From: Acetivibrio cellulolyticus CD2
GTDB lineage: Bacteria; Bacillota; Clostridia; Acetivibrionales; Acetivibrionaceae
NCBI RefSeq assembly: GCF_000179595.2
Contig: NZ_JH556653.1
Location: forward strand, 1,096,237 to 1,160,236
Direction: 5' to 3'
Length of the DNA: 64,000 bases
The notes under the pieces are model-generated. The model did not search any database, was not told the origin of the DNA, and saw nothing but the letters and a program-made list of their open reading frames with translations. The translations under genes were made by a program, and so were the position numbers. This document shows, piece by piece, positions 4,007 to 42,009 of the stretch (positions are counted from its first letter, which is position 1; the number at the start of each line of letters is the position of its first letter).

Positions 4007-4198
4007 CTGATTCTTCCACCTTTTTTCATACAAGCACTACATCACTACAAAAGCCTCAGCATTATCTATATTAGATATTGCAAAGTCAGGTTTTATTATA
4101 CCCGACTTTTATCTATAATCAAATACGATAACATTAAAATACTACTGGCATTCAGTGCAGTACATCTTTAGAGAATTACCTCTTAAATTTCTTAAACA

Positions 4199-4228
4199 AA
4201 AAGGCTATCTCCTTAAAGATAACCTTTT
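4199..4228 (-). terminator. Intrinsic terminator after the permease-glycosyltransferase fusion gene
   Basis: On the minus strand AAAAGGTTATCT pairs with AGATAGCCTTTT over 12 bp with one G-T wobble, and TGTTT follows. It lies about 50 bases past the stop codon at 4277. The T-rich arms may let it act in both directions. Confidence 0.7.
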
Positions 4229-4276
4229 ACCTTCTTGCTTCTATTATAAAGCTCATACTTCCGCAGATTTATTTCA

Positions 4277-6886
4277 CTAATCATTTTCCTGAATGACTTT
4301 CCTCATGATTACACCATACCAGGAATAATCTTCATTGAAGTATTCCGGACCAACTACACAATGAAATTTGCCATTTAAAAGCCATCTGTATGAATTTTCT
4401 GCAGAAGACGAATACTGCCTGTCAACAAGCCAAATATTTTTCTTTCCTTTGACAAAGCCCTCCAAATCAGAGCCCGCCTCACCGTTAGGCGCAAACGCTG
4501 AATAGGAACTATACCCTTTAAATCCCTGACTAAGATATAAGTAATGCTTGTTGTTGGGGAAATAATATGAGAAAGTGCCAAAAGTATGCTCATCGCTATG
4601 AACAAATATATCATCCGGAGTAATTGTGTCTTCTAAATAGTTTCTGACCTCAAACATCGGCCCGCTATATCTTAGCATATTTATCTGTCTAATAGGGTCT
4701 AAGGAAAATATCAGCAGGAGAATCACTATAAATATTGATATATCCTTGTATTTAATATTCGAAATGCCATATGCAGCTGCTAATAGGAACAACCCTACTA
4801 CCGGAAAAATATACCGGTCAACAAAAATTGGTCTAACCTCTGCAGATACTTTTACAGCAACTGCAAGGGTTGTAATATAGATAAGAATTGCATACGCTGA
4901 TAGCATCCCTTCCTTTTTGCGGTTTGTATATGCCTGACTTATTCCCCAAAACGCAAATCCAACAGCTATAAGGAATGAAGGTAGGATAAAATCAAACCCG
5001 TTTGCAAACTTTGCCTTAAATGGATATATCAGCGCCTGCCATATTACCCCTCTTGTAACATCAGGTATCCAAAAATCCTTAGAAACCTTTGAAATCTGTC
5101 CCACTAAAGTCATAGCCCATGGCAAAAAACCACCCATAGTAGCAATTGCCATAACCACATACTTCAAAAACTTCTTTTTCTCAAACCGTAGTATAAGGTA
5201 CAATACCAGAATTACATTGGCAATAGTTACAGCAAGCAGAGCAAAATAATGCGTATAGGCAGCCCCAAGGGAAAATACTCCAAGCATTATAAAGTCCCAT
5301 GTCTTACCCTTTTCTGTGCACAAATAAGCATATACTGCCGCACCTGTTACAAAAAAGGCAGCCCAGGTATACATTCTTGCCTCTTGCCCCATTGAAAGAC
5401 TCATTGGCACTATAAGTACAATAACCCCAAAAATCCAGCCGGTAAAGTTGCCAAAAGCTCTTCTCACCGGACCTGCGCCAAGTACTGCAAGCATCAATAT
5501 ACCAAGTACTGAGAGCAATCTTAGAGAAGCTTCCGTTCTCCCAAACATAAGTGTGACAACTCTGAGCATTATAAAATACAAGGGAGGATGGCTATCTCCT
5601 GCAGTGATTTTCCAGATTTCAGGTATTGAATGAGTTGATACTGCTGCGGAATACGATTCATCAAACCAAAGGGATTCGTGCCCACTTCCGTTTGTAAGGT
5701 ATATAAAACCCAATATAAGAGTCAAAGGCCACAAAATAAACCAGACAAAATTGCTGCTCCGAGCCTTTAAGTATATATTGCATAAAGCACCTGATAAAAC
5801 CTTGATTTTTTTTCTAATCTCAAGTTTCAAGCATGCTGCAGATATGGCCTTCCATACTTTCAGCAACCAACTGCAAATAAACTCCAACCATTTTGCATGG
5901 CGAAAAGCGCGATCAAACCAAACACTCAGTCGGGTACTTTCTTTTTTCCTTAGAATAGACCCATCGGAAACACTTAAATCCCTCCCGAAGAACCCATACC
6001 ACAGCAGCACCGCCAAAATAACAGCAAGCATTATCATAATAGTCCCAGCTGTACCAGTTCCATAAAACCAATTTCTGAAGAAGTGCCTGTACATATAGTA
6101 AGATATTGCGTCCCATTCAAAGATCCTGTAGGAATAATAGACATTAAGAATTAATCCCAGAAAAATCAGTATTGCAATAACAGGTTTCAGTAACGGAAGT
6201 GTAATATAATAAAACTTTTGAAAACGCCCCGCCCCATCAATTCCAGCGGCTTCATAACACTCTTTGCTTATATTCTGAATACCTGAGAGCAGGAAGATTG
6301 TCCATAAAGGGACATAATGCCATACTGTAATTATTATCATTACCCAGAGCACTATTTCATCTGAAAACCAGTTAATTCTATACTGTACAAGGTGCAGCCA
6401 GTCAAACATAATCTTGTTCAACAAACCATAGTCCTTATTAAAATATGTGTCCCATGCAGCCTCCAGCAAGAAGCTCGGCATAATAAAAGGAAGAAACAAG
6501 ATAGTCCTTGATATCCCACTTAGCTTGAACTTTCTGTTTAAAGCTATTGCAAGCATCAAACCTATAGCAAGACACAAAATATTGACAATAACAACATACA
6601 TTGCAGTATTATAAAGACTTCTTCTAAATGTCTCTTCCATTGCACCATTTGACCCTGTGGCGACAAATATATAGTTTTTCAAGCCCATAAAAGGTGCAGT
6701 AAATTTGGTAAAAAACTGTTTCCATGTAGCAGGCTTTAAGTCAAGGAAAGATACATATATAGCTTGAATCAGTGGAAACAGCTGGAAAAATAAAATACAT
6801 AAAAAAGCAGGCATCAACAACAAATATGGATGTGATTTACTTTTTCTAACTTTGGACATTTTTCCAGATGTAATTCTCTCTCTCAT
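4277..6886 (-). CDS. MalF-type ABC permease fused to GT-C (family 39-like) glycosyltransferase
   Basis: One open frame of 869 residues joins two membrane modules. Residues about 15-310 are a sugar ABC transporter permease of the MalF/UgpA type with six membrane segments and the EAA loop YEAAGIDGAGRFQKFYYITL (E212), where the ATPase docks. After a basic linker (about 315-385), residues about 390-869 form a polytopic GT-C glycosyltransferase resembling ArnT/PMT family 39. It has the luminal acidic motif WFDESYSAA (D409-E410) and HPPLYF (H433), and a soluble C-terminal part. The family normally uses a polyprenyl-phosphate sugar to glycosylate an acceptor outside the membrane. AGGGGTG precedes the ATG. 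The MalG-type partner ends 47 bases upstream; no ATPase or sugar-binding protein is nearby. Coupling of transport and glycosylation is inference only. Confidence 0.8.
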   Translation of the reverse strand: MRERITSGKMSKVRKSKSHPYLLLMPAFLCILFFQLFPLIQAIYVSFLDLKPATWKQFFTKFTAPFMGLKNYIFVATGSNGAMEETFRRSLYNTAMYVVIVNILCLAIGLMLAIALNRKFKLSGISRTILFLPFIMPSFLLEAAWDTYFNKDYGLLNKIMFDWLHLVQYRINWFSDEIVLWVMIIITVWHYVPLWTIFLLSGIQNISKECYEAAGIDGAGRFQKFYYITLPLLKPVIAILIFLGLILNVYYSYRIFEWDAISYYMYRHFFRNWFYGTGTAGTIMIMLAVILAVLLWYGFFGRDLSVSDGSILRKKESTRLSVWFDRAFRHAKWLEFICSWLLKVWKAISAACLKLEIRKKIKVLSGALCNIYLKARSSNFVWFILWPLTLILGFIYLTNGSGHESLWFDESYSAAVSTHSIPEIWKITAGDSHPPLYFIMLRVVTLMFGRTEASLRLLSVLGILMLAVLGAGPVRRAFGNFTGWIFGVIVLIVPMSLSMGQEARMYTWAAFFVTGAAVYAYLCTEKGKTWDFIMLGVFSLGAAYTHYFALLAVTIANVILVLYLILRFEKKKFLKYVVMAIATMGGFLPWAMTLVGQISKVSKDFWIPDVTRGVIWQALIYPFKAKFANGFDFILPSFLIAVGFAFWGISQAYTNRKKEGMLSAYAILIYITTLAVAVKVSAEVRPIFVDRYIFPVVGLFLLAAAYGISNIKYKDISIFIVILLLIFSLDPIRQINMLRYSGPMFEVRNYLEDTITPDDIFVHSDEHTFGTFSYYFPNNKHYLYLSQGFKGYSSYSAFAPNGEAGSDLEGFVKGKKNIWLVDRQYSSSAENSYRWLLNGKFHCVVGPEYFNEDYSWYGVIMRKVIQEND

Positions 6887-6933
6887 TTTTGCACCCCTTT
6901 TATACGCTATTTAAATCTCCCAATAAAATGTAA

Positions 6934-7749
6934 TTACTCTTTAAGTGCTCCTCCGGTTAACCCTTTCATGAAGTTCTTCTGCACAACAAAGAAAATAGCA
7001 AAAATAGGAATGCTCGAAAGCGGAGCTGCAAAAAAGCGGTTATTATCATAGCTTGGCCAAAGTGCAACCGTCTTCATGTTATCCGAGGTCATCAGTACAT
7101 CAACTAAAAGTCTTTCATCCCATACAAGCATCAAAAGAAGCATTGCTGTTACAACAATTCCAGAACTTATAAGAGGTAGAAGTATTCTTGCCATTATGCC
7201 AAAAGTTGAGCACCCATCTACCCTTGCAGCCTCCTCAATCTCCACAGGTATAGAAACAATAAATCCCCTTAACATCCAGATGCTAAAGGGCAGATACATT
7301 ACTGCATACATAATCGCAAGTATATAATAGCCATTATATGTGTTATAGAATTTTATTCCGGAAATGTCCTGAATTCTCTTTATCGATACCGCAAAAGGCA
7401 AGAAATATGCTATAGTAGGGATAAGAAGAGGAAATACTACAAAAATGCTGAACATATTAAGCCCGGTAAATTTATACCTGGCTAAGGCATAAGCCGCAGG
7501 CAACGCTATTGCCAATCCCAGTATTATACTCATTGAGGATAGAAAAATACTGTTTTTCAAGTAGCTCATAAAACCTTGTTGTCTAACAAACTGAGGCATT
7601 CTAAAATTGTCAGTTATAATATAATTAAAAGAAGCATTGAGCAAAGTAATGATTGGAATTATTGAAATAGCGATAAACAAAATAAGTATTCTATCAGCAA
7701 TCTTGTCTGATAAGCTATCATTAGTTTTACACATTTCTTCCTTCACCAT
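6934..7749 (-). CDS. MalG-type carbohydrate ABC transporter permease
   Basis: The second permease half of a CUT1-type ABC sugar importer, expected to pair with the permease half of the downstream fusion protein. It has about six membrane segments, starting near residue 13 (ILILFIAISIIPIITLL), and the EAA loop EEAARVDGCSTFG with E173 followed by LLPLISSGIVV. The translated start is taken at the ATG at 7749 (MVKEEMCK) because CGAGGAGTGG ends five bases before it; an earlier ATG at 7800 has no adequately spaced ribosome site. The length of 271 residues suits the family. It lies between a lipoprotein gene (111 bases upstream) and the fusion gene (47 bases downstream), suggesting co-transcription. 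The substrate cannot be told from sequence. Confidence 0.85.
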   Translation of the reverse strand: MVKEEMCKTNDSLSDKIADRILILFIAISIIPIITLLNASFNYIITDNFRMPQFVRQQGFMSYLKNSIFLSSMSIILGLAIALPAAYALARYKFTGLNMFSIFVVFPLLIPTIAYFLPFAVSIKRIQDISGIKFYNTYNGYYILAIMYAVMYLPFSIWMLRGFIVSIPVEIEEAARVDGCSTFGIMARILLPLISSGIVVTAMLLLMLVWDERLLVDVLMTSDNMKTVALWPSYDNNRFFAAPLSSIPIFAIFFVVQKNFMKGLTGGALKE

Positions 7750-7859
7750 TCTATCCACTCCTCGATAACTATATACTACCAATAAGTCGATTTCAAACAT
7801 GTTATGGAAACTATTTTCCCCTGTTTATACTAACCCCTATTGAAGCAATATTTCATTCC

Positions 7860-9041
7860 CTAGTAGTTTAATATTTTTGTCAATGCCTCCAATTGATCCA
7901 TCTCTCTTTTTACAGTAAAGGAGTTCATTATAAAATACTCCGACCATTCTTCATAAGTAGATTTTATTATATTATAAGATTGACTGTACTTGATTTTTGC
8001 AGTTTTGTAATCTTTAAGCCCCTTGTAAGCCCGACCAAGATTCAGATATACTTCTGCCAGTTCATCCTGGGTACAGCTGATTTGATTTATATCATCCTTG
8101 TAAATGATATCGTTTAACAAATTCTTTCCTTCAACATACTTTTCCGCTTGTATCAAAGCTTCCGCCTTATATGTCTCCAGCTTAACCCTATACTTTTCAT
8201 AGTGGGAGGGTATAATATTTAACGCTCTATTCGCCGATTCAAGTGCTTCAAGTGATCTATCCGACCTTACCAGCATTTCCGTTAAGTAATACCAGTCTAA
8301 AAAGTTTCTATCATACAACCTGTTTCTTTCCTGTAGAGCCTTGATTCTCTCTTTATGATATATGGGATACACATCTTTTGCCGGTACAAGCCCGTTATCA
8401 TACCACCTTAAGACTAAAGGCGGCACATTATCATCTAACTGATCGTCGTCTTTTCTCGTTATAATAAACTCAGGCTTTCTTTCATTTTCACTCCCAGAAA
8501 GATTGGTTAAAGCCATTTCATTATATTTAATGTTACTGACTTTTTTGGGAGTACCTTTAAATGAGATAATATCCAGATTATATCCAGCCTCAAAACCCAA
8601 ATTCCATCCCAATAATAGTTCAGGAATTTTATCATCAGTTATGTCTATAAACTGAGCCCAATCAAGCCCTATAATATTTATCTTATAATCCTCATGCCAA
8701 ATATTCTGCCATTCACCATGCCTGTTTTTTAATACAATTGCACCGAAACCGTTACCAGATTCGTTGTCTTTATATGTAACAAGCATTTCATCCTGTCCAT
8801 CACTTTCAATGTCTACAAGCTGTATAGCATCAGCTCCATTTGGATGCGTGGGATATAAAAACTTCGTCCCTTGAGGCAAGAATTTTTCTGCTATAATCTT
8901 AATATCTTCTGCACTACTGGTCGCTATCTGTGAATAATAAGGAGGCCCAATTATGCTGCCTGGTGCCGGCAATAGATCGCACCCCGTTACCATAGATAAT
9001 ACCAATAAGTTAAATAATATATAAAACCCCTTTAATTTCAT
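7860..9041 (-). CDS. Lipoprotein with FG-GAP/VCBS-like and TPR-like regions
   Basis: A predicted membrane-anchored lipoprotein: signal peptide with lipobox LSMVTGC, so Cys21 is the likely lipidated residue. Residues about 60-170 contain blade-like units such as DAIQLVDIESDGQDEMLVTY and AQFIDITDDKIPELLLGWNL, similar to FG-GAP/VCBS beta-propeller repeats. Residues about 245-385 are helical with TPR spacing (LEALESANRALNIIPSHYEK; LAEVYLNLGRAYKGLKDYKT). GGAGA precedes the ATG. It sits between the sensor kinase and the two permease genes on the same strand. It is not a recognisable sugar-binding protein; a ligand-capture or scaffold role for the locus is a guess. I know no named family for the whole protein. 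Confidence 0.65.
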   Translation of the reverse strand: MKLKGFYILFNLLVLSMVTGCDLLPAPGSIIGPPYYSQIATSSAEDIKIIAEKFLPQGTKFLYPTHPNGADAIQLVDIESDGQDEMLVTYKDNESGNGFGAIVLKNRHGEWQNIWHEDYKINIIGLDWAQFIDITDDKIPELLLGWNLGFEAGYNLDIISFKGTPKKVSNIKYNEMALTNLSGSENERKPEFIITRKDDDQLDDNVPPLVLRWYDNGLVPAKDVYPIYHKERIKALQERNRLYDRNFLDWYYLTEMLVRSDRSLEALESANRALNIIPSHYEKYRVKLETYKAEALIQAEKYVEGKNLLNDIIYKDDINQISCTQDELAEVYLNLGRAYKGLKDYKTAKIKYSQSYNIIKSTYEEWSEYFIMNSFTVKREMDQLEALTKILNY

Positions 9042-9179
9042 ATGAATTCTCCATTTCAGCCAGAATTCTTTGTAACTTAATTCTATAGCATTAAAAATAT
9101 TAAATGGTTACCAAATGTTTAAAAAGTAAAATCAATTTTAAAGACAACCAACACCCATTTCATAAAATTTTATCCACTA

Positions 9180-10592
9180 TTACAACTGGATTTCTTTAGA
9201 CAAAGGAAGATATATCTCTACCCTTGTACCCACTCCAAATTCACTGCTAATCTCAAGCCTGCCATTATGCAGACTTATTATTTCATCACATATGGCAAGT
9301 CCTAATCCATTGCCTGAAAAAGAAGTACTAACCTTATAAAACTTTTCTTTTACCTTTGGCAAATCATCTTCAGGTATTCCAATTCCGGAATCTTCAATGC
9401 CTATTAAAACTTCATCCTCTTTAGATTGACATGATATCTTTATTCGTCCGCCTTCCTGTGTATATTTAAGTGAATTATCGAGGATATTTATCATTACCTG
9501 CTTTAATCTGTTTCTGTCAGCCTTTATTAAAGCCATATCATATTCAATCTCTAGTCCAAGATCAATTCCCTGTCTCTGCGCTCTAGGATTCATCTGGTTT
9601 CTTATTTCGCAAATAAACTCACCAACATCAATTGCTTCCATGCCTAAAGAAGCACTCTTAGAGGTAAGCTTAGAAAAGTCCAGCAGTTCATTTACCAAAA
9701 GCGCCAACCTGTCAGTTTCATTTTCAATTATCCCAAGACCTTCCTTAATCTCACCCATATCAGTAAAGCCGCCCGAGTTTAAAGTTGCAGCCCATCCCTT
9801 TATTGATGTAAGTGGCGTACGGAGTTCATGAGAAATTGATGCAATAAAATCATTTGTGAGCTTCTGATGATTTGATAGTTCCTTTGCCATGTAATTAAGG
9901 GTAATAGCCAGCTTACCCACCTCATCGTCATATCTTTTAGGAACGCGAACATCCAACTTGCCTTGCGCTATTTCCTCCGCAGCAATTGTAATTTCCTTAA
10001 CCGGCTTAATTATTGTAGTGGAAAGAAAATAACTCAAAAGCAGCACAACCAGTAAAATTGCTATATCTACCAATAGAAGAACCAAACCATCCATTACCAT
10101 TATCCAGTTAACTTTAGAAAGTGTCGAAATCAATCTGACAACTCCAATTACCTTATCATCTACTTTTATAGGATGTGAAACAGAAATTGCTGTATCATTT
10201 GTAAATAAAATATTACCTATGGAATTAGAAGGCTTGCCTTTTAAAGAACTCTCAACATCAGAACTGTTTACCTTATATCCAACACCCAAACCTTCTATAG
10301 AATCCGCCAGAACTATTCCATCACTATCAATAATCTGAACCTGGGAACTTGTGGTTCGCCTGATACTATCCAATAACGTTTTAGCACTTTTTTGCAAATT
10401 ATCTTTTCCAGTATAAAGATTACACGAATTTGCCGCAAACATGGCTTCTCTCTCTAAAGTCATTTCTGTATTGACGTAATAATATTGTCTTAACATAAAT
10501 ATAAGAATTAAACTAAAAATAGTAACCGTTAACAGACTAATTATGAGATAGCTTCCTATCAACCTGCCTCTTATGCTTTTCAAACTATTCAC
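9180..10592 (-). CDS. Membrane sensor histidine kinase (PhoR/ResE type)
   Basis: The sensor half of a two-component system. In order: membrane segment about 11-34, an extracellular PAS/Cache-like domain about 35-165 (VQIIDSDGIVLADS), second membrane segment about 167-190, HAMP, HisKA with ISHELRTPLTS (phospho-accepting H255), and a HATPase_c domain with the N box LDNSLKYT, G1 DSGIGIP and G2 GNGLGLAI. I start it at the GTG at 10592, overlapping the regulator's stop by 8 bases with GGAGAAAG just upstream. An upstream ATG at 10655 would lie deep inside the regulator gene and has no ribosome site. It is translationally coupled to the regulator and probably controls the lipoprotein-permease-glycosyltransferase genes downstream. 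The signal is unknown. Confidence 0.88.
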   Translation of the reverse strand: MNSLKSIRGRLIGSYLIISLLTVTIFSLILIFMLRQYYYVNTEMTLEREAMFAANSCNLYTGKDNLQKSAKTLLDSIRRTTSSQVQIIDSDGIVLADSIEGLGVGYKVNSSDVESSLKGKPSNSIGNILFTNDTAISVSHPIKVDDKVIGVVRLISTLSKVNWIMVMDGLVLLLVDIAILLVVLLLSYFLSTTIIKPVKEITIAAEEIAQGKLDVRVPKRYDDEVGKLAITLNYMAKELSNHQKLTNDFIASISHELRTPLTSIKGWAATLNSGGFTDMGEIKEGLGIIENETDRLALLVNELLDFSKLTSKSASLGMEAIDVGEFICEIRNQMNPRAQRQGIDLGLEIEYDMALIKADRNRLKQVMINILDNSLKYTQEGGRIKISCQSKEDEVLIGIEDSGIGIPEDDLPKVKEKFYKVSTSFSGNGLGLAICDEIISLHNGRLEISSEFGVGTRVEIYLPLSKEIQL

Positions 10593-11271
10593 CCTTTCTC
10601 CACAGGTAGCCGCGTCCCCATAAAGTCTCAATATACTTTGGATTGGATGGATCATCCTCTATTTTTTCTCTTATTCGTCTTATATGAACATCTACCGTCT
10701 TAGGGTCTCCTACAAAATCCTCTCCCCAAACAATATTTAGAATTTCATCTCGCGTAAATGCTTTATTTATATTGTTTATGAATACTTTCATCAAGCTGAA
10801 TTCTCTCGGAGTGAAGTCTAAAAGCACATCATTTTTATATATACTTTGCGCCTCCATATCAACTCTAAATGGACCTATATGAATTTCAACACTGGAATTT
10901 TGCTTGCCTGCACGTCTCAGAATTGCCTTAATTCTAGCTACAAGCTCCATAGGACTAAATGGTTTTATTATATAATCATCTGCCCCTAATTCAAGACCTC
11001 TCACTTTGTCAAGGTCTTGTCCCCTTGCAGTAAGCATGATCACCGATAATGATGGGTAATCGCATGATATTTCCTTACAAACCTGAAATCCATCCATATC
11101 AGGAAGCATTATATCTAATAAGACCAAATCTGGCTTTTCAAATTTGACCAATCGTAAAGCCTCATGCCCTGTACCAGCTTCCAGAACTTCAAAATTATTT
11201 CTTTTCAGATTTGTAATAATAAAGCTTCTTATAGATTTCTCATCGTCTACAACTAAAATTCTCGCCCCCAT
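10585..11271 (-). CDS. OmpR/PhoB-family response regulator
   Basis: A DNA-binding response regulator. The N-terminal receiver domain has the acidic pair D9-D10, phospho-acceptor D53 in LVLLDIMLPD, the switch Thr in MLTARG and the Lys in IIKPFSP. The C-terminal winged helix (about 130-228) includes LDFTPREFSLMKVF, VDVHIRRIREKIEDDP and the ending YIETLWGRGYLW. AAAGGAAG lies 6 bases before the ATG. It is first in its strand group, followed with an 8-base overlap by its kinase. Putative targets are its own group and the permease-glycosyltransferase genes. Confidence 0.92.
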   Translation of the reverse strand: MGARILVVDDEKSIRSFIITNLKRNNFEVLEAGTGHEALRLVKFEKPDLVLLDIMLPDMDGFQVCKEISCDYPSLSVIMLTARGQDLDKVRGLELGADDYIIKPFSPMELVARIKAILRRAGKQNSSVEIHIGPFRVDMEAQSIYKNDVLLDFTPREFSLMKVFINNINKAFTRDEILNIVWGEDFVGDPKTVDVHIRRIREKIEDDPSNPKYIETLWGRGYLWRKGE

Positions 11272-13966: not shown

Positions 13967-16900
13967 ATGTTTAAGAAAATCACGGCTCTTATTGTAATTT
14001 TGACAATGTTAGCCACATTCATGACATCAGGTTTTGCATCAGGTATCTCGCCATATCCTAAAAATGGATTCCGTCTGGTAGCCCAAGATACTGATTCAAC
14101 AGGAATTGCTGTTGACACTGAGTTTATCCTTGAGACAGAAAAGAATTATTCTCTCGAAGAAATTCAAAATGCCTTTTCAATTGATGGAGAGCCATCACCT
14201 AAAATTGAAGAAATGGATACAAACCTGTTCAGTATCAATTTATCAAGACCACTCATGGAAAACAGTCTTTATACTTTTAGGATGAGTATGGATACCGAGA
14301 CTACTTGGGTATTTCAGACACAATCAAGCTTTAAGATCGTCAGTTCACTTCCTGCCGAAAAATCGGTCAGTGTTCCTGTAAACAGTGGAATTGAAATAAC
14401 CTTCAGCCATGAAAACTTTAGTAACATTGAGAGTTATTTTGAGATTACACCTGCTGTTAAAGGAAAGTTTGAAGTACATAAAAAAACAGCCGTATTTGTT
14501 CCGGAAAGCCTTAACTATGATACAGTCTATACGGTAACTATTCATAAGGGAATGTACATTCAAGGAACAAAAAGAACAATAGGCGAAGATTATGTTTTTT
14601 CATTTGAAACACAAAGTAAAGCTGCAAATTCCACTCCTGCACCAGGCCAAGTTATTACTAATCTCAATCCGGGAAGATATCTATATGATTTTGGATCTTT
14701 AGAAAATCCTGATGTTGTAATAAATTATTCAAGTTATATGATAGGAGGCGGAACTTTTACACCTCCTACAATAACAACCAAAAACAGTATTTATGCTTAC
14801 AATGATTTTAATTCCTTCGTTAGCGCAATTGAAGAAAAGAATGTTACTCCTTACTGGGCACAAAGCTACAATAAGAAGTTTGCTCCAGTTGACAAACTCC
14901 AAAAAGTCCTTGAATTTGAACAGGTATTAAATGAAGACAGTACAGAACGTTACGGAAATGGCCATTTGAAAGTTCCCCAAACATTGCCTGAAGGGTATTA
15001 TGTTCTTGACGGATATTATAAAGATATTAGATTTCAAACATTCCTTCAGATAACGAATACAGGAATATATATATCTGAAAGTAACTCAAAGACACTGGTA
15101 TGGTTAAATGACCTGTCAACTCAAAATCCTATCGAAGGAGCAAGCATAAGTTTTATAGGCTGCGATAAGATTAATTACTCCGGAGTTGATGGAATTGCAT
15201 ACTTTGATAGTATTAATACACCGGTTAATAACAGTAATAAGTATTACAGCTATTATATTTATAACCGGTACAATCAATATATGATTGTTACAACCAAACA
15301 AGGTAAATCATCCCTGCTGGATTGCAGCAACTATTCCTATATTAACGAAAACAACTACTGGAGCTATTTCTATACCGATAGAGGTATGTATAAATCAAAT
15401 GACACAATTAACGTCTGGGGTTATATCAAAAACCGGTACGAAGATGAGAAAATAGATTATTTGTCCCTTGAAATAAACCGAAGTTATTACTCTAATACAC
15501 CACCTATAGTAAAACAAAATATTGACGTGAACAAATCATTCTATGAAGGGGCAGTTAAATTACCAGACCTTCCAGAGGGCTATTATTATATAACTCTCAA
15601 AAAAGGTGATAAAACTATTATTAATAGATATATTACAGTAGAGAACTACACTAAACCTTCATACAAATTGGAAATCTCCAAAGATAAGAACGCCATTTTT
15701 GTCGATGACGAGGCTAATTTTAATATAAAGGCGTCGTTTTTCGAAGGTACTGGAGTATCAAATCTCTCCACAAGTTATTCCATATACTCATATAATTTAT
15801 TAGGAAATACAAACAAAACACAAACAGCCGACTTAAAAGGAAATCTGGGTGTAAAATATGCTCCTTCAGTAGGCTCCAGTGTTCAAGATGAATGCACAGC
15901 ATATCTTGAGGCACGTGCAACTCTTCCGGAAAGCGGTGAAATAAGGGCTTCAAGTTATTTACGTGTGTTTGTTAATGATATTAAAATTCAACCAAGCGGT
16001 AAAATTAAAGATGGCGTAGGTACAATCAGTGCACAGGTTAATAAGATCGATCTTGACCGTATTAATAGCGGAACTGCCAAAAACAGCTATGATTATCTCA
16101 GTGATGCTGTAAGCGGAAAAACTATAAAAGGTACAATATACAAAAATACATGGAACAAAATCGAAAATGGTACTTACTATGATTACATAAACAAAATTAC
16201 TTATAAGACTTACCGTTACGAATTGTTAAAAGAACCTGTAAGCAACTTTTCAATGGTAACATCCAATGATGGATATGCTTCATATACTTTTAATGTTCCA
16301 AATATCCCTGATACCTACTATACAGCACAACTAGACAGTGTTGACAGCAACGGAAGATCTATGACCTACACCGTATACTGCGGAGAGCAATTGGATTATT
16401 CAAGATACCAATACAGAGGATATACTCTCGAGGGAACTAAGAGCTCTTATGGCCTTGGCGAAAGTGTAGATCTTACCTTCAAATACGGAAATGAACCTCT
16501 TCCTGCAGGGAAGTACATCTACTACAAATCCCAAAATGGTACATATGACTATGCTGCTGGCTCTTCATCCTCCTATTCCTTCAACTTCAGCGAAAGGGAA
16601 GTGCCTAACACACAAGTAACAGGAGTATATTTTAACGGTAAAACTTACGTATCTGCTTCCTACAGTGCAGTGTACAACGTAAAGGAAAAGAACCTCACAA
16701 TTGAAGCAAAGACAGATAAGGATTCCTATAAACCAGGAGATCAGGTTACCATAAACCTTGATGTCAAAGACATAAACGGAAAGCCTGTAAAGTCAACAAT
16801 AAATCTAAGTGTAGTTGATGAGGCCTTCTTCAATTTGCTTGATCAGGATGTTGATCTTCTTCACAATTTATATGCCAATGTGAATTCAGGTGTATACTAC

Positions 16901-19129
16901 CAAGGCAAATCACACGATTTGTACTATTCCTATAATAGTTATTACGATTATGTAGGAATCCGTCTTGAAAATGCACCTGCAGATTCGAATTCCGGCAAGT
17001 CATCCTCGGAAACAAAAGTAAGGGAAGACTTCAAGGATACAGCTCAATTCGCATCAGTTGAAACTGACGAAACCGGCAGGGGCCAGATCACATTCAAACT
17101 TCCTGACAATATCACATCATGGAGAGTAACCCTTTCTGCCATTTCAGAAGATCTGCATGCAGGAAGCGACAAGGTTAATATGATTGTAACTCTTCCATTT
17201 TTTATAAACTATAGTTTTAACACTTCATACCTTGAGGGTGATAAACCTATTCTCGGTGTAAACGCTTATGGTAACGGTTTGGAAGAGAATGACGAGGTTA
17301 CTTTTGAGGTGACAGGCTCAGATCAATCAAGTCCTAAACTTACTGTTACAGGCAAAGCTTTTGAAAGAGTCAATATACCTCTTTGGGCATTAAATGAAGG
17401 TAAACAGGATATAACAATAAAGGCTTACACTGATAAATATTCTGACGCAGTAAAGCATACATTCAATGTAGTAAAATCTTACTACCAGATTGAGAAAGCA
17501 GAATATTATGATGCTGCTCCGAATATGACAATTGCAGGAGGCAAGTCCGGATTTACAAAAGTAGTGTTCCAGGATAAAAGCAAAGGTGTGTTCTTATGGG
17601 ATCTTATCGGCTTAAGATATTCATATGGCAATAGAATAGACCAGATTATATCCAATTATACTGCTTCCAGCTTGATTTCAAAATACTTCCCTGATTACAG
17701 CTATAGTATCGATATTCAGAAACCATTACTCAATGAATACCAGAAGGCTGATGGAGGTTTGTCATTATTGCCGTATTCAGAAAGTGACCTTGAACTTACA
17801 GCTAAGCTTACAAAACTTGCAAAAAGCATGGTAAATACCCAGTCCCTTAAAGACTACTACTATAATATACTTGACAGCAGTACACTCGCTGAAGATAAAG
17901 CAAAAGCTTTATATGGTCTTTCCGTTTTGAACGAACCAGTATTGCTGACACTTGAAAATCTGGCACAAATAGATAATTTAAATGTTAAAGCTCTTATGTA
18001 TATTGCACTTGCTTACTGTGAGCTTGGTGATATTTCAACAGCAGAACAAATTTACAATAATAGAATTTATCCGCTAGTTGAAAATTTCGAACCCTATTAC
18101 AGGGTTAACACCAGTGGAGACAAGGACAATATTCTTGAAGCAACTTCACTTTGTTCATATCTTGCTGCACAGCTTCAAAAACCTGAATGTGAAGGCCTGT
18201 ATGAATATTGTGAAAAAAATTATGCCAAGGATATCCTGCTAAATACGGAAAAACTCATGTTTATCTCAACTCAAATAGAAAAGAGAATTGATGCAGTTGG
18301 AAAAGTTACTTACTCATTAAATGGAGAAGAAAAAACTGTAACATTTGAGAATGGATCGTCCTACTGCCTTTCACTTTTACCTTCACAGCTTGCTGGTCTG
18401 AAGATAACAAACGTTGAAGGAGCTGTATCTGCAGTATCCATCTTCAAGGAAGACATACTTGAAACAGGTAACGTTGATGAAGACATTTCAGTAACAAGAA
18501 CTTATATGTTCACTAATGGAACTCCACTGTCTTCAAATACATTAAAGCAGGGCGATGTAATTAAAGTCAGACTTGATTGGAATATGAGCGATACTGCCTT
18601 TGATGGAGTTTATGAAATAACTGACTATCTGCCATCAGGGTTGAAGCCTTATAACTCATATTACAACACCGAAGGTCAGAAAATCAGCTTCTATATCTAC
18701 AACAGCACCTACTGGAAGTATCAAACATATATCGAGTATTATGCAAGAGTAATAAGTCCTGGAACTTATACAGCTCAAGGACCGATTATTCAGGGCAAAA
18801 CATCAAGAGACAATATCAATTGCGGAAAAACTGAAATAGTGACAATTGATGCTTCTGATCCAGTGTTGACACCTGTTCAAGAACTTCCAAATCCAACATC
18901 TACTCCTGTAAAAGATATTTTATATGGAGATTTGGATGGCGACGGCAAAATCAGTTCAATTGACTTTGGATACCTAAGGTCATGTTTGCTTGGACTGAAG
19001 TCCCAATTCCCAATGCCCATTGAAAACGCTGACTTAAATGGTGATGAAAAAATAAACTCTCTTGATCTGGCCTTAATGAGACAGTATTTGCTTGGTTATA
19101 TCAAGCAGTTCCCCGTTTACAAATCTTAA
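13967..19129 (+). CDS. Alpha-2-macroglobulin-like protein with C-terminal type I dockerin
   Basis: A 1720-residue secreted protein. It has a signal peptide (LIVILTMLATFMTSGFASG), then a Big_5-like Ig domain about 120-215. Macroglobulin-type beta domains follow, including TDRGMYKSNDTINVWGY of the MG2 type. The A2M signature region is near 1020-1090 (ETDETGRGQITFKLPDN, then ITSWRVTLSAIS), followed by a helical toroid like the thioester domain. At the thioester site the expected YGCxEQ reads YSYGNRIDQ (N1222, Q1226), so the reactive Cys is absent. Residues about 1650-1717 are a dockerin with two F-hand repeats (GDLDGDGKISSIDFGYL; ADLNGDEKINSLDLALM). It is likely carried on a cellulosome scaffoldin, perhaps as a protease trap or structural protein. 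AAAGGGGAGG precedes the ATG. Confidence 0.88.
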   Translation: MFKKITALIVILTMLATFMTSGFASGISPYPKNGFRLVAQDTDSTGIAVDTEFILETEKNYSLEEIQNAFSIDGEPSPKIEEMDTNLFSINLSRPLMENSLYTFRMSMDTETTWVFQTQSSFKIVSSLPAEKSVSVPVNSGIEITFSHENFSNIESYFEITPAVKGKFEVHKKTAVFVPESLNYDTVYTVTIHKGMYIQGTKRTIGEDYVFSFETQSKAANSTPAPGQVITNLNPGRYLYDFGSLENPDVVINYSSYMIGGGTFTPPTITTKNSIYAYNDFNSFVSAIEEKNVTPYWAQSYNKKFAPVDKLQKVLEFEQVLNEDSTERYGNGHLKVPQTLPEGYYVLDGYYKDIRFQTFLQITNTGIYISESNSKTLVWLNDLSTQNPIEGASISFIGCDKINYSGVDGIAYFDSINTPVNNSNKYYSYYIYNRYNQYMIVTTKQGKSSLLDCSNYSYINENNYWSYFYTDRGMYKSNDTINVWGYIKNRYEDEKIDYLSLEINRSYYSNTPPIVKQNIDVNKSFYEGAVKLPDLPEGYYYITLKKGDKTIINRYITVENYTKPSYKLEISKDKNAIFVDDEANFNIKASFFEGTGVSNLSTSYSIYSYNLLGNTNKTQTADLKGNLGVKYAPSVGSSVQDECTAYLEARATLPESGEIRASSYLRVFVNDIKIQPSGKIKDGVGTISAQVNKIDLDRINSGTAKNSYDYLSDAVSGKTIKGTIYKNTWNKIENGTYYDYINKITYKTYRYELLKEPVSNFSMVTSNDGYASYTFNVPNIPDTYYTAQLDSVDSNGRSMTYTVYCGEQLDYSRYQYRGYTLEGTKSSYGLGESVDLTFKYGNEPLPAGKYIYYKSQNGTYDYAAGSSSSYSFNFSEREVPNTQVTGVYFNGKTYVSASYSAVYNVKEKNLTIEAKTDKDSYKPGDQVTINLDVKDINGKPVKSTINLSVVDEAFFNLLDQDVDLLHNLYANVNSGVYYQGKSHDLYYSYNSYYDYVGIRLENAPADSNSGKSSSETKVREDFKDTAQFASVETDETGRGQITFKLPDNITSWRVTLSAISEDLHAGSDKVNMIVTLPFFINYSFNTSYLEGDKPILGVNAYGNGLEENDEVTFEVTGSDQSSPKLTVTGKAFERVNIPLWALNEGKQDITIKAYTDKYSDAVKHTFNVVKSYYQIEKAEYYDAAPNMTIAGGKSGFTKVVFQDKSKGVFLWDLIGLRYSYGNRIDQIISNYTASSLISKYFPDYSYSIDIQKPLLNEYQKADGGLSLLPYSESDLELTAKLTKLAKSMVNTQSLKDYYYNILDSSTLAEDKAKALYGLSVLNEPVLLTLENLAQIDNLNVKALMYIALAYCELGDISTAEQIYNNRIYPLVENFEPYYRVNTSGDKDNILEATSLCSYLAAQLQKPECEGLYEYCEKNYAKDILLNTEKLMFISTQIEKRIDAVGKVTYSLNGEEKTVTFENGSSYCLSLLPSQLAGLKITNVEGAVSAVSIFKEDILETGNVDEDISVTRTYMFTNGTPLSSNTLKQGDVIKVRLDWNMSDTAFDGVYEITDYLPSGLKPYNSYYNTEGQKISFYIYNSTYWKYQTYIEYYARVISPGTYTAQGPIIQGKTSRDNINCGKTEIVTIDASDPVLTPVQELPNPTSTPVKDILYGDLDGDGKISSIDFGYLRSCLLGLKSQFPMPIENADLNGDEKINSLDLALMRQYLLGYIKQFPVYKS

Positions 19130-39777: not shown

Positions 39778-42009
39778 ATGAAAGTTCTTCATCTAATTGG
39801 TGGAGGAGACATAGGTGGAGCAAAAAGCCATGTTCTCTCTCTAGTAAATGAGCTCGGCAAGCATATAGATGTTAAATTAATCAGCTTCAGGACAGGTGCA
39901 TTTGCTGATGAAGCCCACACTTTAGGTATAAATATAGACATTGTAAAAACGGGTACTATTTTTTCTGATGTCAAGAAGGTTTTGGAAATAATAAAGGAAG
40001 AGGGATATGAACTTATACATTCGCACGGTGCTAAAGCGAACATGGTTGCTGTGGCAGTTAAAAAGATTACAGGTTTGCCTGTAGTAACAACGGTTCACAG
40101 TGATTACAGGCTTGATTATCTTCAAAATATAGTAAAGATGTTTTCTTTTGGTATGGTAAATATGGTTGCACTTCGATTCGTAGATTACTATATCGGTGTA
40201 TCTAAAAATTTCAAAGATATGCTGATTGAAAGAAGGTTTAACCCCCAAAATATATTTACTGTTTATAATGGTATCAATTTCGAGAAGAAGGAATTAAAGC
40301 TTACCAAAGAGGGGTTTTTATCAAAATATAATCTACATTTTGATAAAGATGATGTAATTATCGGAATTCTTGCAAGACTTCACCCGGTAAAAGGAATCAC
40401 AACTTTTCTTCAGGCTGCCGCTGAAGTAGTTAAGCAAAATCCTTCAGTAAGGTTTCTGATAGCAGGTGATGGTGAAGAAAGAAAATCTTTAGAACGTAAA
40501 GCTGCTTCTCTCAAGCTTGATAAAAACGTGTTCTTTCTAGGCTTTGTTAATGAACCCTATGAGTTTATTAACACTATAGATATAAATGTCCTTACTTCCT
40601 TAAGTGAAAGTTTTCCATATTCTATTTTAGAGGGTACACTCTTTAAGAAAGCTACAATAAGCAGTAATGTAGGGGGTATTTCAGACCTTATTGATACTGA
40701 AAGAAATGGATTTCTTTTTGAGCCTAAGGATTATCAAGCCCTCGCCAAGCACATGCTTACACTCGTTAATAATACGCAGCTTAGAGAAGAAATGGGTCAA
40801 AAAATTCATCAAAAGGCTAGTACGTATTTCTCCCTTGAAAATATGTGTAATACTCAACTTGGAATATATGAAAACATTATATGCAGAAGCCTTGACAGAA
40901 AAACTCCCCGAAATCATTATGATGCTATAATTTCCGGGTACTACGGTTTTAAAAATGTCGGTGATGATGCAATGCTCATGGCTATAATAGATAATCTAAG
41001 GATGTGTAAAAAGGATCTTCGGATATTGGTACTTTCAAAGAATCCTGTTGAAACAAGACGTATTTATAATGTTGATTCAATAAACAGAATTAACCTCCTT
41101 AGAATCCTCTTTACCATGAGAAAATCCAAACTATTTATAAGCGGCGGAGGAACCCTAATTCAGGATAATACAAGTACCCGTTCCCTTATATATTACCTTG
41201 GAATGATCTGGTTGGCTAAAAAAACGAACATGAAAGTTATGATCTATGCCAACGGTATCGGACCTTTAAACAAGAAGAACAATAGAAATCTAACAAAATA
41301 TGTTGTCAATAAAGTAGATGTTATTACTCTTAGGGAAGAATTATCCTACAAAGAGCTTGTTAATTTAAATATAGACAAACCCCAAATTCATGTGACTGCA
41401 GATCCTGCCTTCACTATAAAAGCTGAAAATCCTGAACATATTAATTATTTACTTTCAAGTGAAGGGATCGACCCTCAGACCCCATTTATCGGTTTTTCGG
41501 TAAGAAGGTGGAATAACCATGACAAATATGAAACAACCATTGCCAAAATTGCGGATTACATCATAGAAACATATGGCATTAACACACTATTTATTCCAAT
41601 GCATTATCCTGGTGATCTTGTAATTATTGAAAACATACTATCCAAGATGAAAAATAAAGGTTATGCAATCAGAAAAAAACACTCTGTATCAGAAACACTT
41701 GGAATAATTGGTAAAACTCAAATGCTTATTGGCATGAGGCTACATGCTTTAATATTTGCAGCCAGTATAGGCATTCCATCAGTCGGTATTGTTTACGAAC
41801 CTAAGGTTGAAGGCTTTCTAAAGTATGCAAACCAAGCCTCGGCAGGTCATGTAAATTCATTGGAATTTGATAAAATGAAACAAATAGTTGATAATGTATG
41901 GAACAACAGGGAAAGTATCAAAAGAGAACTGGATTCTACTACTGCAGACCTTAAGGAAAAGGCATTAAAAAATGCCCATGTAGCTTTTGATCTTATTGAA
42001 AACTATTAA
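39778..42009 (+). CDS. csaB: GT4 glycosyltransferase fused to CsaB-type polysaccharide pyruvyl transferase
   Basis: A 743-residue two-domain protein. Residues 1-375 are a GT-B family 4 glycosyltransferase (HLIGGGDIGGAKSHVLSLVN; IGILARLHPVKGITTFLQAA; SESFPYSILEGTLFKKA). After a short link near 375-382, residues about 383-743 are a CsaB-type pyruvyl transferase (ISGYYGFKNVGDDAMLMAII; LFISGGGTLIQDNTSTRSL; IGMRLHALIFAASIGIPSVG). CsaB adds ketal pyruvate to the secondary cell-wall polymer, which SLH domains then bind; in cellulosome makers this holds anchoring scaffoldins on the cell. CAAGGAG precedes the ATG. A TagA/WecG glycosyltransferase gene follows 47 bases later. The fusion implies that sugar addition and pyruvylation are linked, an inference. 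Confidence 0.88.
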   Translation: MKVLHLIGGGDIGGAKSHVLSLVNELGKHIDVKLISFRTGAFADEAHTLGINIDIVKTGTIFSDVKKVLEIIKEEGYELIHSHGAKANMVAVAVKKITGLPVVTTVHSDYRLDYLQNIVKMFSFGMVNMVALRFVDYYIGVSKNFKDMLIERRFNPQNIFTVYNGINFEKKELKLTKEGFLSKYNLHFDKDDVIIGILARLHPVKGITTFLQAAAEVVKQNPSVRFLIAGDGEERKSLERKAASLKLDKNVFFLGFVNEPYEFINTIDINVLTSLSESFPYSILEGTLFKKATISSNVGGISDLIDTERNGFLFEPKDYQALAKHMLTLVNNTQLREEMGQKIHQKASTYFSLENMCNTQLGIYENIICRSLDRKTPRNHYDAIISGYYGFKNVGDDAMLMAIIDNLRMCKKDLRILVLSKNPVETRRIYNVDSINRINLLRILFTMRKSKLFISGGGTLIQDNTSTRSLIYYLGMIWLAKKTNMKVMIYANGIGPLNKKNNRNLTKYVVNKVDVITLREELSYKELVNLNIDKPQIHVTADPAFTIKAENPEHINYLLSSEGIDPQTPFIGFSVRRWNNHDKYETTIAKIADYIIETYGINTLFIPMHYPGDLVIIENILSKMKNKGYAIRKKHSVSETLGIIGKTQMLIGMRLHALIFAASIGIPSVGIVYEPKVEGFLKYANQASAGHVNSLEFDKMKQIVDNVWNNRESIKRELDSTTADLKEKALKNAHVAFDLIENY

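Follow-up and report, generated by a model that had tools for sequence, protein, structure and literature searches.

The window, the whole stretch of 64,000 nucleotides of Acetivibrio cellulolyticus CD2 DNA analyzed here, contains a gene, malF::GT, that is a genuine, duplicated, and constrained fusion of two known modules, a MalF-type permease and a GT-C glycosyltransferase (GT). The reading we prefer, at a probability of roughly 45%, is that its product is a transporter-tethered, externally acting glycosyltransferase. The gene forms a single uninterrupted frame of 869 amino acids on the minus strand (positions 4277 to 6886), with the coordinates, strand, and length given in the original prediction; the positions of E212, D409-E410, and HPPLY were also as claimed. 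The first module (residues 1 to 305, positions 5972 to 6886, minus strand) was assigned by model matches, by phmmer matches to MalF (2r6g) and the sugar permease 7cad_A, and by the Pfam family BPD_transp_1 (hmmscan, residues 107 to 296, 45.5 bits, above the cut-off). It includes the EAA coupling loop YEAAGIDGA...LPLLKP (residues 211 to 235, positions 6182 to 6256, minus strand), identified by column conservation against transporter-B MalFs. The basic linker (residues 306 to 378, positions 5753 to 5971, minus strand) is characterized by low identity between the two fusions, low model confidence, and its charge, with 17 K+R versus 6 D+E in loop 302 to 379. The GT-C module (residues 379 to 869, positions 4280 to 5752, minus strand) was recognized by PMT_2 and by VIA-align comparison with Pmt4, Pmt1-Pmt2, and ArnT. 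It carries the acidic motif D409-E410 in its first external loop (positions 5657 to 5662, minus strand) and the HPPLY motif (residues 433 to 437, positions 5576 to 5590, minus strand). In alignment A5, E410 was invariant across 25 rows, D409 was present in at least 90%, and H433, P434, L436, and Y437 were each conserved in at least 90%.

The PMT_2 match in the window protein (residues 432 to 583) scored 24.4 bits against a cut-off of 26.1 in the hmmscan search, while a six-frame search gave 29.6 bits for the same gene and the second fusion reached 31.1 bits. PF02366, the Pfam PMT family corresponding to GT39 proper, had no match in the fusion protein at E values up to 0.1. In NCBIfam, the permease part gave its best partial matches to MalF/UgpA-type permeases and the GT part to a mannosyltransferase model, with scores that all fell far short of the curated cut-offs. 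ArnT belongs to CAZy family GT83. The designation "family 39-like" is thus approximate: the Pfam match is to PMT_2, and the fold is equally near to Pmt (GT39) and ArnT. The MalG-type permease partner is encoded at positions 6934 to 7800 of the minus strand (BPD_transp_1, 56% identity to the second MalG); a start-site scan placed its likely start at 7749, at an ATG at residue 18 preceded by AGGAG. A terminator-like hairpin with a T run lies 3′ of the fusion gene (positions 4196 to 4232, minus strand, −14 kcal/mol, z −4.4) and is absent from the list of a separate terminator pattern scan.

Contig C8 of this genome (6.16 Mb in 10 contigs) encodes a second full-length fusion of 1,013 amino acids, which has a C-terminal DUF2141 domain. 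Both the two-domain fusion and the oddity that had been ascribed to it are supported. The two proteins are 52% identical over residues 15 to 834, E212, D409, E410, and HPPLY are identical in both, and each gene is located after its own malG, the two MalGs being 56% identical. Linker identity is only 18%, and the linker length differs too. A codon comparison gave dN values of 0.36 for the permease, 1.10 for the linker, and 0.41 for the GT module; dS exceeded the estimable range in the permease and came to 1.7 in the linker and 2.1 in the GT module, and was therefore saturated or nearly so. Because dN is low in the modules compared with 1.10 in the linker, the permease and the GT both look constrained by selection, whereas the linker looks free. 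The window linker contains no ATG and only TTG codons, one of them with a distant GGAG; the second fusion has an internal ATG (residue 338) after AGGA that could yield a separate GT. A possible, if less probable, explanation is that the two activities are uncoupled, so that the importer imports, the GT glycosylates, and the join merely fixes co-expression and location. Two conserved modules connected by a linker that is free in sequence and length would fit this explanation, as would the lack of a fusion in the other 57 of 58 genomes of the order sample, which implies that coupling is not generally needed. The retention of the fusion in both copies across the long divergence indicated by 52% identity speaks against it.

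BPD_transp_1 with an EAA loop is present in both MalF and MalG. In trees of 15 rows each, the fusion permeases grouped with CbpB-associated permeases (support 100/100), their nearest relatives being 38 to 41% (MalF) and 35 to 37% (MalG) identical; given the long branches of the fusions and a program warning about long-branch joining in the MalF tree, their exact placement is unsure. Of the columns invariant in five transporter-B MalFs, both copies kept 18 of 23 in the EAA loop, and 67 to 68 of 171 were kept in the rest of the protein. For MalG, 13 of 24 columns were kept in the EAA loop versus 59 to 60 of 143 elsewhere (p about 0.27), so that this loop is not better kept. In the window MalF, about 12 residues are also missing from a strongly conserved stretch that precedes the last permease helix. 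As conserved MalF and MalG residues are changed and these residues are missing from the window copy, transport may be altered or lost. At its extreme, this would leave a GT on a dead permease, with the MalF half as a mere membrane anchor, an explanation that we consider unlikely. The lost residues, the deletion near the last helix, the reversed gene order, and the absence of a binding protein in cis would agree with it, but the MalF EAA loop is kept at 18 of 23 columns in both copies, MalG stands beside both, and the permease dN is as low as that of the GT.

Hydropathy analysis assigned the permease C terminus and the basic linker to the inside and located D409-E410 in the first external GT loop; a second model added a helix pair at about residues 123 to 149. 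The linker is thus predicted to be cytoplasmic and the acidic site to lie outside. The fusion protein was also folded with two alignments, A5, which is rich in GT sequences, and A7, which includes MalF sequences. With A5, the GT module mostly had a pLDDT above 85 and the permease mostly one below 60; with A7, the permease improved to moderate confidence. The permease model matched the SugABC chains 8hpr_A and 7cad_A (TMt 0.77) and also MalF, and the GT model matched Pmt4 (VIA-align Z 29.1), a Pmt1-Pmt2 chain (Z 28.0), and ArnT (Z 28.0). Modeling of both domains, which had been proposed as a check, thus recovered a GT-C fold and a SugABC/MalF-like permease. The linker was poorly predicted in both models, which therefore do not firmly give the arrangement of the modules.

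As originally noted, neither a CUT1 ATPase nor a binding protein is encoded among the genes of the window locus. Transporter B of C. thermocellum comprises CbpB and two permeases, and its ATPase gene, clo1313_2554, lies outside the cluster; such ATPases are reported to be shared in other Gram-positive bacteria (available text of PMC9601137). The only ATPase of the A. cellulolyticus genome above the NF008653 cut-off is encoded about 15 kb before the window and matched the ABC ATPase structure 7x0q, presumably that of Clo1313_2554, over its full length (E 7e-220). The genome encodes CbpB-type binding proteins and transporter-B permease pairs in equal number, three of each. One of these binding proteins belongs to an ordinary operon on contig C9. 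The other two, on C8, have an N-terminal copper-amine-oxidase-N stalk and are encoded in tandem (L065:7622-9160 and L065:9329-10957), 4.5 and 6.2 kb downstream of a third GT gene and with no permease beside them. By eye, we saw no cysteine in the N-terminal hydrophobic stretch of the stalk-type proteins. The ligand-stacking residues W90 and W296 of CbpB are kept in all three binding proteins. That an ATPase and a binding protein are missing from the locus is not diagnostic of a sensor, since the transporter-B ATPase is encoded elsewhere and candidates in trans exist here. By analogy, we infer that the MalG/MalF::GT pairs could be served by this ATPase and the CbpB-type proteins. As dedicated partners of the fusions, the orphan binding proteins are only a possibility: a stalk-type protein, also an orphan, occurs in another genome (G009) that has no fusion, and a broken one in a further genome (G012).

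The genes for MalG, a lipoprotein, a sensor kinase (HK), and a response regulator (RR) do precede the fusion gene on the same strand. The lipoprotein had been called FG-GAP/TPR-like; its TPR matches scored under the Pfam cut-offs, and the search reported no FG-GAP family. In two genomes of the same genus (G001 and G002), a macroglobulin-like gene is followed, in this order, by the genes for RR, HK, lipoprotein, and UvrD, with identities of 55 to 82% to the window block. The gap between the lipoprotein gene and UvrD amounts to 35 and 151 bases without a gene in these genomes and to 3,826 bases, with malG and the fusion gene, in the window. The two genes look like an insertion between the lipoprotein gene and UvrD, and the genes around them look incidental; only short imperfect repeat matches were found at the insertion edges. 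It is very improbable that the cassette is a sensor-type transporter acting together with the neighboring two-component system and lipoprotein. In favor of this reading are the position of the cassette directly downstream of these genes on the same strand and the finding that deletion of transporter B in C. thermocellum abolished the induction of cellulosome production by cellobiose and cellulose (available text of PMC9601137). Against it, the cassette is missing from the RR-HK-lipoprotein-UvrD block of G001 and G002 and from the RR-HK-lipoprotein trio of G013, and no RR, HK, or lipoprotein gene was found within the 19.5 kb examined at the second fusion. A two-component/lipoprotein system that contains the fusion was therefore rejected. 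The macroglobulin-like gene of the window (positions 13967 to 19129, plus strand) encodes a 1,720-residue alpha-2-macroglobulin-like protein that ends in a type I dockerin, as does its G001 homologue, and may be cellulosome borne. Elsewhere in the window (positions 39778 to 42009, plus strand), a 743-residue frame combines a group 1 glycosyltransferase with a polysaccharide pyruvyl transferase domain.

No fusion was detected in the other genomes of samples of 58 genomes from the order (E 1e-40), 391 from the class (E 1e-55), and 398 from the phylum (E 1e-38). The samples overlap and each includes the source genome, and with two candidates scored per genome a distant fusion could escape the two larger ones. 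A 638-residue frame of G608, encoded between a binding protein and MalG, was read as a normal MalF that is extended upstream by a long high-GC stretch. Two other genomes of the genus gave no GT match at E 1e-20. A scan of genome contigs returned 34 loci with GT relatives, some of which coincide with loci from the sampled genomes. By phmmer, no permease or binding protein was found near the GT at any of the 34, several of whose flanks end at contig ends, and at one locus (L097) phmmer found no GT frame. The same two-domain order thus recurs as a second copy in this genome, whereas the modules are separate in all relatives examined, and the fusion is apparently limited to one species. The two fusions were sisters in the trees of MalF (support 97/99), MalG (100/99), and GT (99/98), and the fusion GT joined stand-alone GTs of G008 and G013 (89/92). 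The simplest history is a single fusion followed by duplication within the lineage. The absence of the fusion from every relative searched would be compatible with an assembly or sequencing artefact, a concern raised at the outset, but its probability is negligible given a divergent fused paralogue on another contig, two stop-free frames, and a module G+C content (0.36 to 0.39) near that of the window (0.355).

The genome has 17 PMT_2 matches, 15 of them above the cut-off, and two of them are the fusions. No MalF or MalG was found by phmmer near eight others (L108 to L115), including the third GT paralogue (L065:1237-3126), which is 31% identical, has EE for DE and Q for H433, and carries a DUF2141 domain. 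Apart from the fusions, the genome has no close homologue of the stand-alone GT found in G008 and G013, so that GT activity has probably been conserved, the distant PMT_2 genes notwithstanding. GT-C enzymes use lipid-linked sugar donors, and the GT domain probably does the same. A seven-cohesin protein with Thr/Pro-rich linkers is encoded directly before the second MalG-MalF::GT pair (L023:11582-15541) and would be a natural candidate acceptor. Among nine GT-neighbor proteins chosen by eye, SLH or dockerin domains occur in those at L033, L035, L036, and L065, and both at L026 had no Pfam match; SLH and dockerin genes are frequent in such genomes. In A. straminisolvens, the stand-alone GT is split into two frames (L077:4917-6481), either as a broken gene or as a draft error.

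The sequence shows a MalF subunit that belongs to the cellodextrin transporter-B type and continues in frame, via the basic linker, into a GT-C enzyme resembling PMT and ArnT. Under the preferred reading of a transporter-tethered GT, MalG and MalF::GT would assemble with an MsmK-type ATPase and a CbpB-type binding protein from elsewhere in the genome. The GT domain would move sugar from a polyprenyl-phosphate carrier onto an external acceptor, most likely a secreted protein, for example the Thr/Pro-rich linkers of surface or cellulosomal proteins, or possibly an envelope glycan, and the permease half would still be an oligosaccharide importer or serve as an anchor. The second fusion with the same order and motifs, the constrained modules, the kept MalF EAA loop, the sister placement, the SugABC/MalF and Pmt/ArnT model matches, and the ATPase and CbpB-type proteins in trans with W90 and W296 argue for this reading, as do the cohesin protein before the second fusion and the analogy to C. 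bescii GT39 glycosylation (available text of PMC6151902). The changed permease columns, the loss of about 12 residues, the unremarkable MalG EAA loop, the G009 stalk-type protein without a fusion, the 17 PMT_2 matches, and the possible internal GT start count against it. So does the observation, made by eye, that the GT genes of G008 and G013 have neighbors in common that are not shared by the GT genes of G028 to G030. A highly doubtful extension is sugar-gated glycosylation, in which cellodextrin captured by a CbpB-type binding protein would drive the MalG/MalF::GT/MsmK cycle and thereby switch the GT on or deliver its acceptor; glycosylation of surface and cellulosomal proteins would then follow cellulose breakdown. 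We found no description of a malF::GT-type fusion in the open-access literature, subscription journals being mostly outside the scope of this search. The fusion, which had been put forward as a candidate for a new system, does not represent a multi-gene system of a new kind. Sugar importers normally work apart from GT-C enzymes, as separate machines, and a duplicated, constrained fusion suggests that holding them together pays in one lineage of cellulose degraders. It provides a concrete test case for a linkage of sugar uptake with external glycosylation and points to a candidate GT for surface proteins of cellulosome-forming clostridia.

To our knowledge, none of Pmt4, Pmt1-Pmt2, and ArnT is joined to a transporter subunit; the GT module shares the GT-C fold with these structures (Z 26.8 to 29.1 over 340 to 435 residues) but is only 9 to 12% identical to them. 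Much closer are the stand-alone PMT_2/ArnT-like GTs of L026, L027, and L033 to L036, and of the named species Acetivibrio mesophilus (L079) and Pseudobacteroides cellulosolvens (L066 and L067), which have the same motifs and 46 to 52% identity over the GT module; unlike the fusions, they are single genes, and no permease was seen next to them. The GT39 protein Cbes_1864 of C. bescii is required for the glycosylation of extracellular proteins, among them secreted cellulases, and enables the organism to grow on crystalline cellulose; it is described as homologous to protein mannosyltransferases, as probably using a lipid-linked donor, and as also occurring in C. thermocellum (available text of PMC6151902). 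In description, it resembles the GT module in being a membrane GT of a cellulose degrader, but it has 556 amino acids, and the available text mentions no fusion for it. The fusion cassettes resemble transporter B in that their MalF and MalG are nearest to permeases beside CbpB-type binding proteins and in that the ATPase lies outside the cluster, with a highly similar ATPase and CbpB-type proteins present in this genome. In contrast to transporter B, with its order SBP-MalF-MalG and single-domain MalF, the cassettes have the order MalG-MalF without a binding protein in cis, many conserved permease residues are changed, and MalF carries a C-terminal extension of ~560 residues with the glycosyltransferase.
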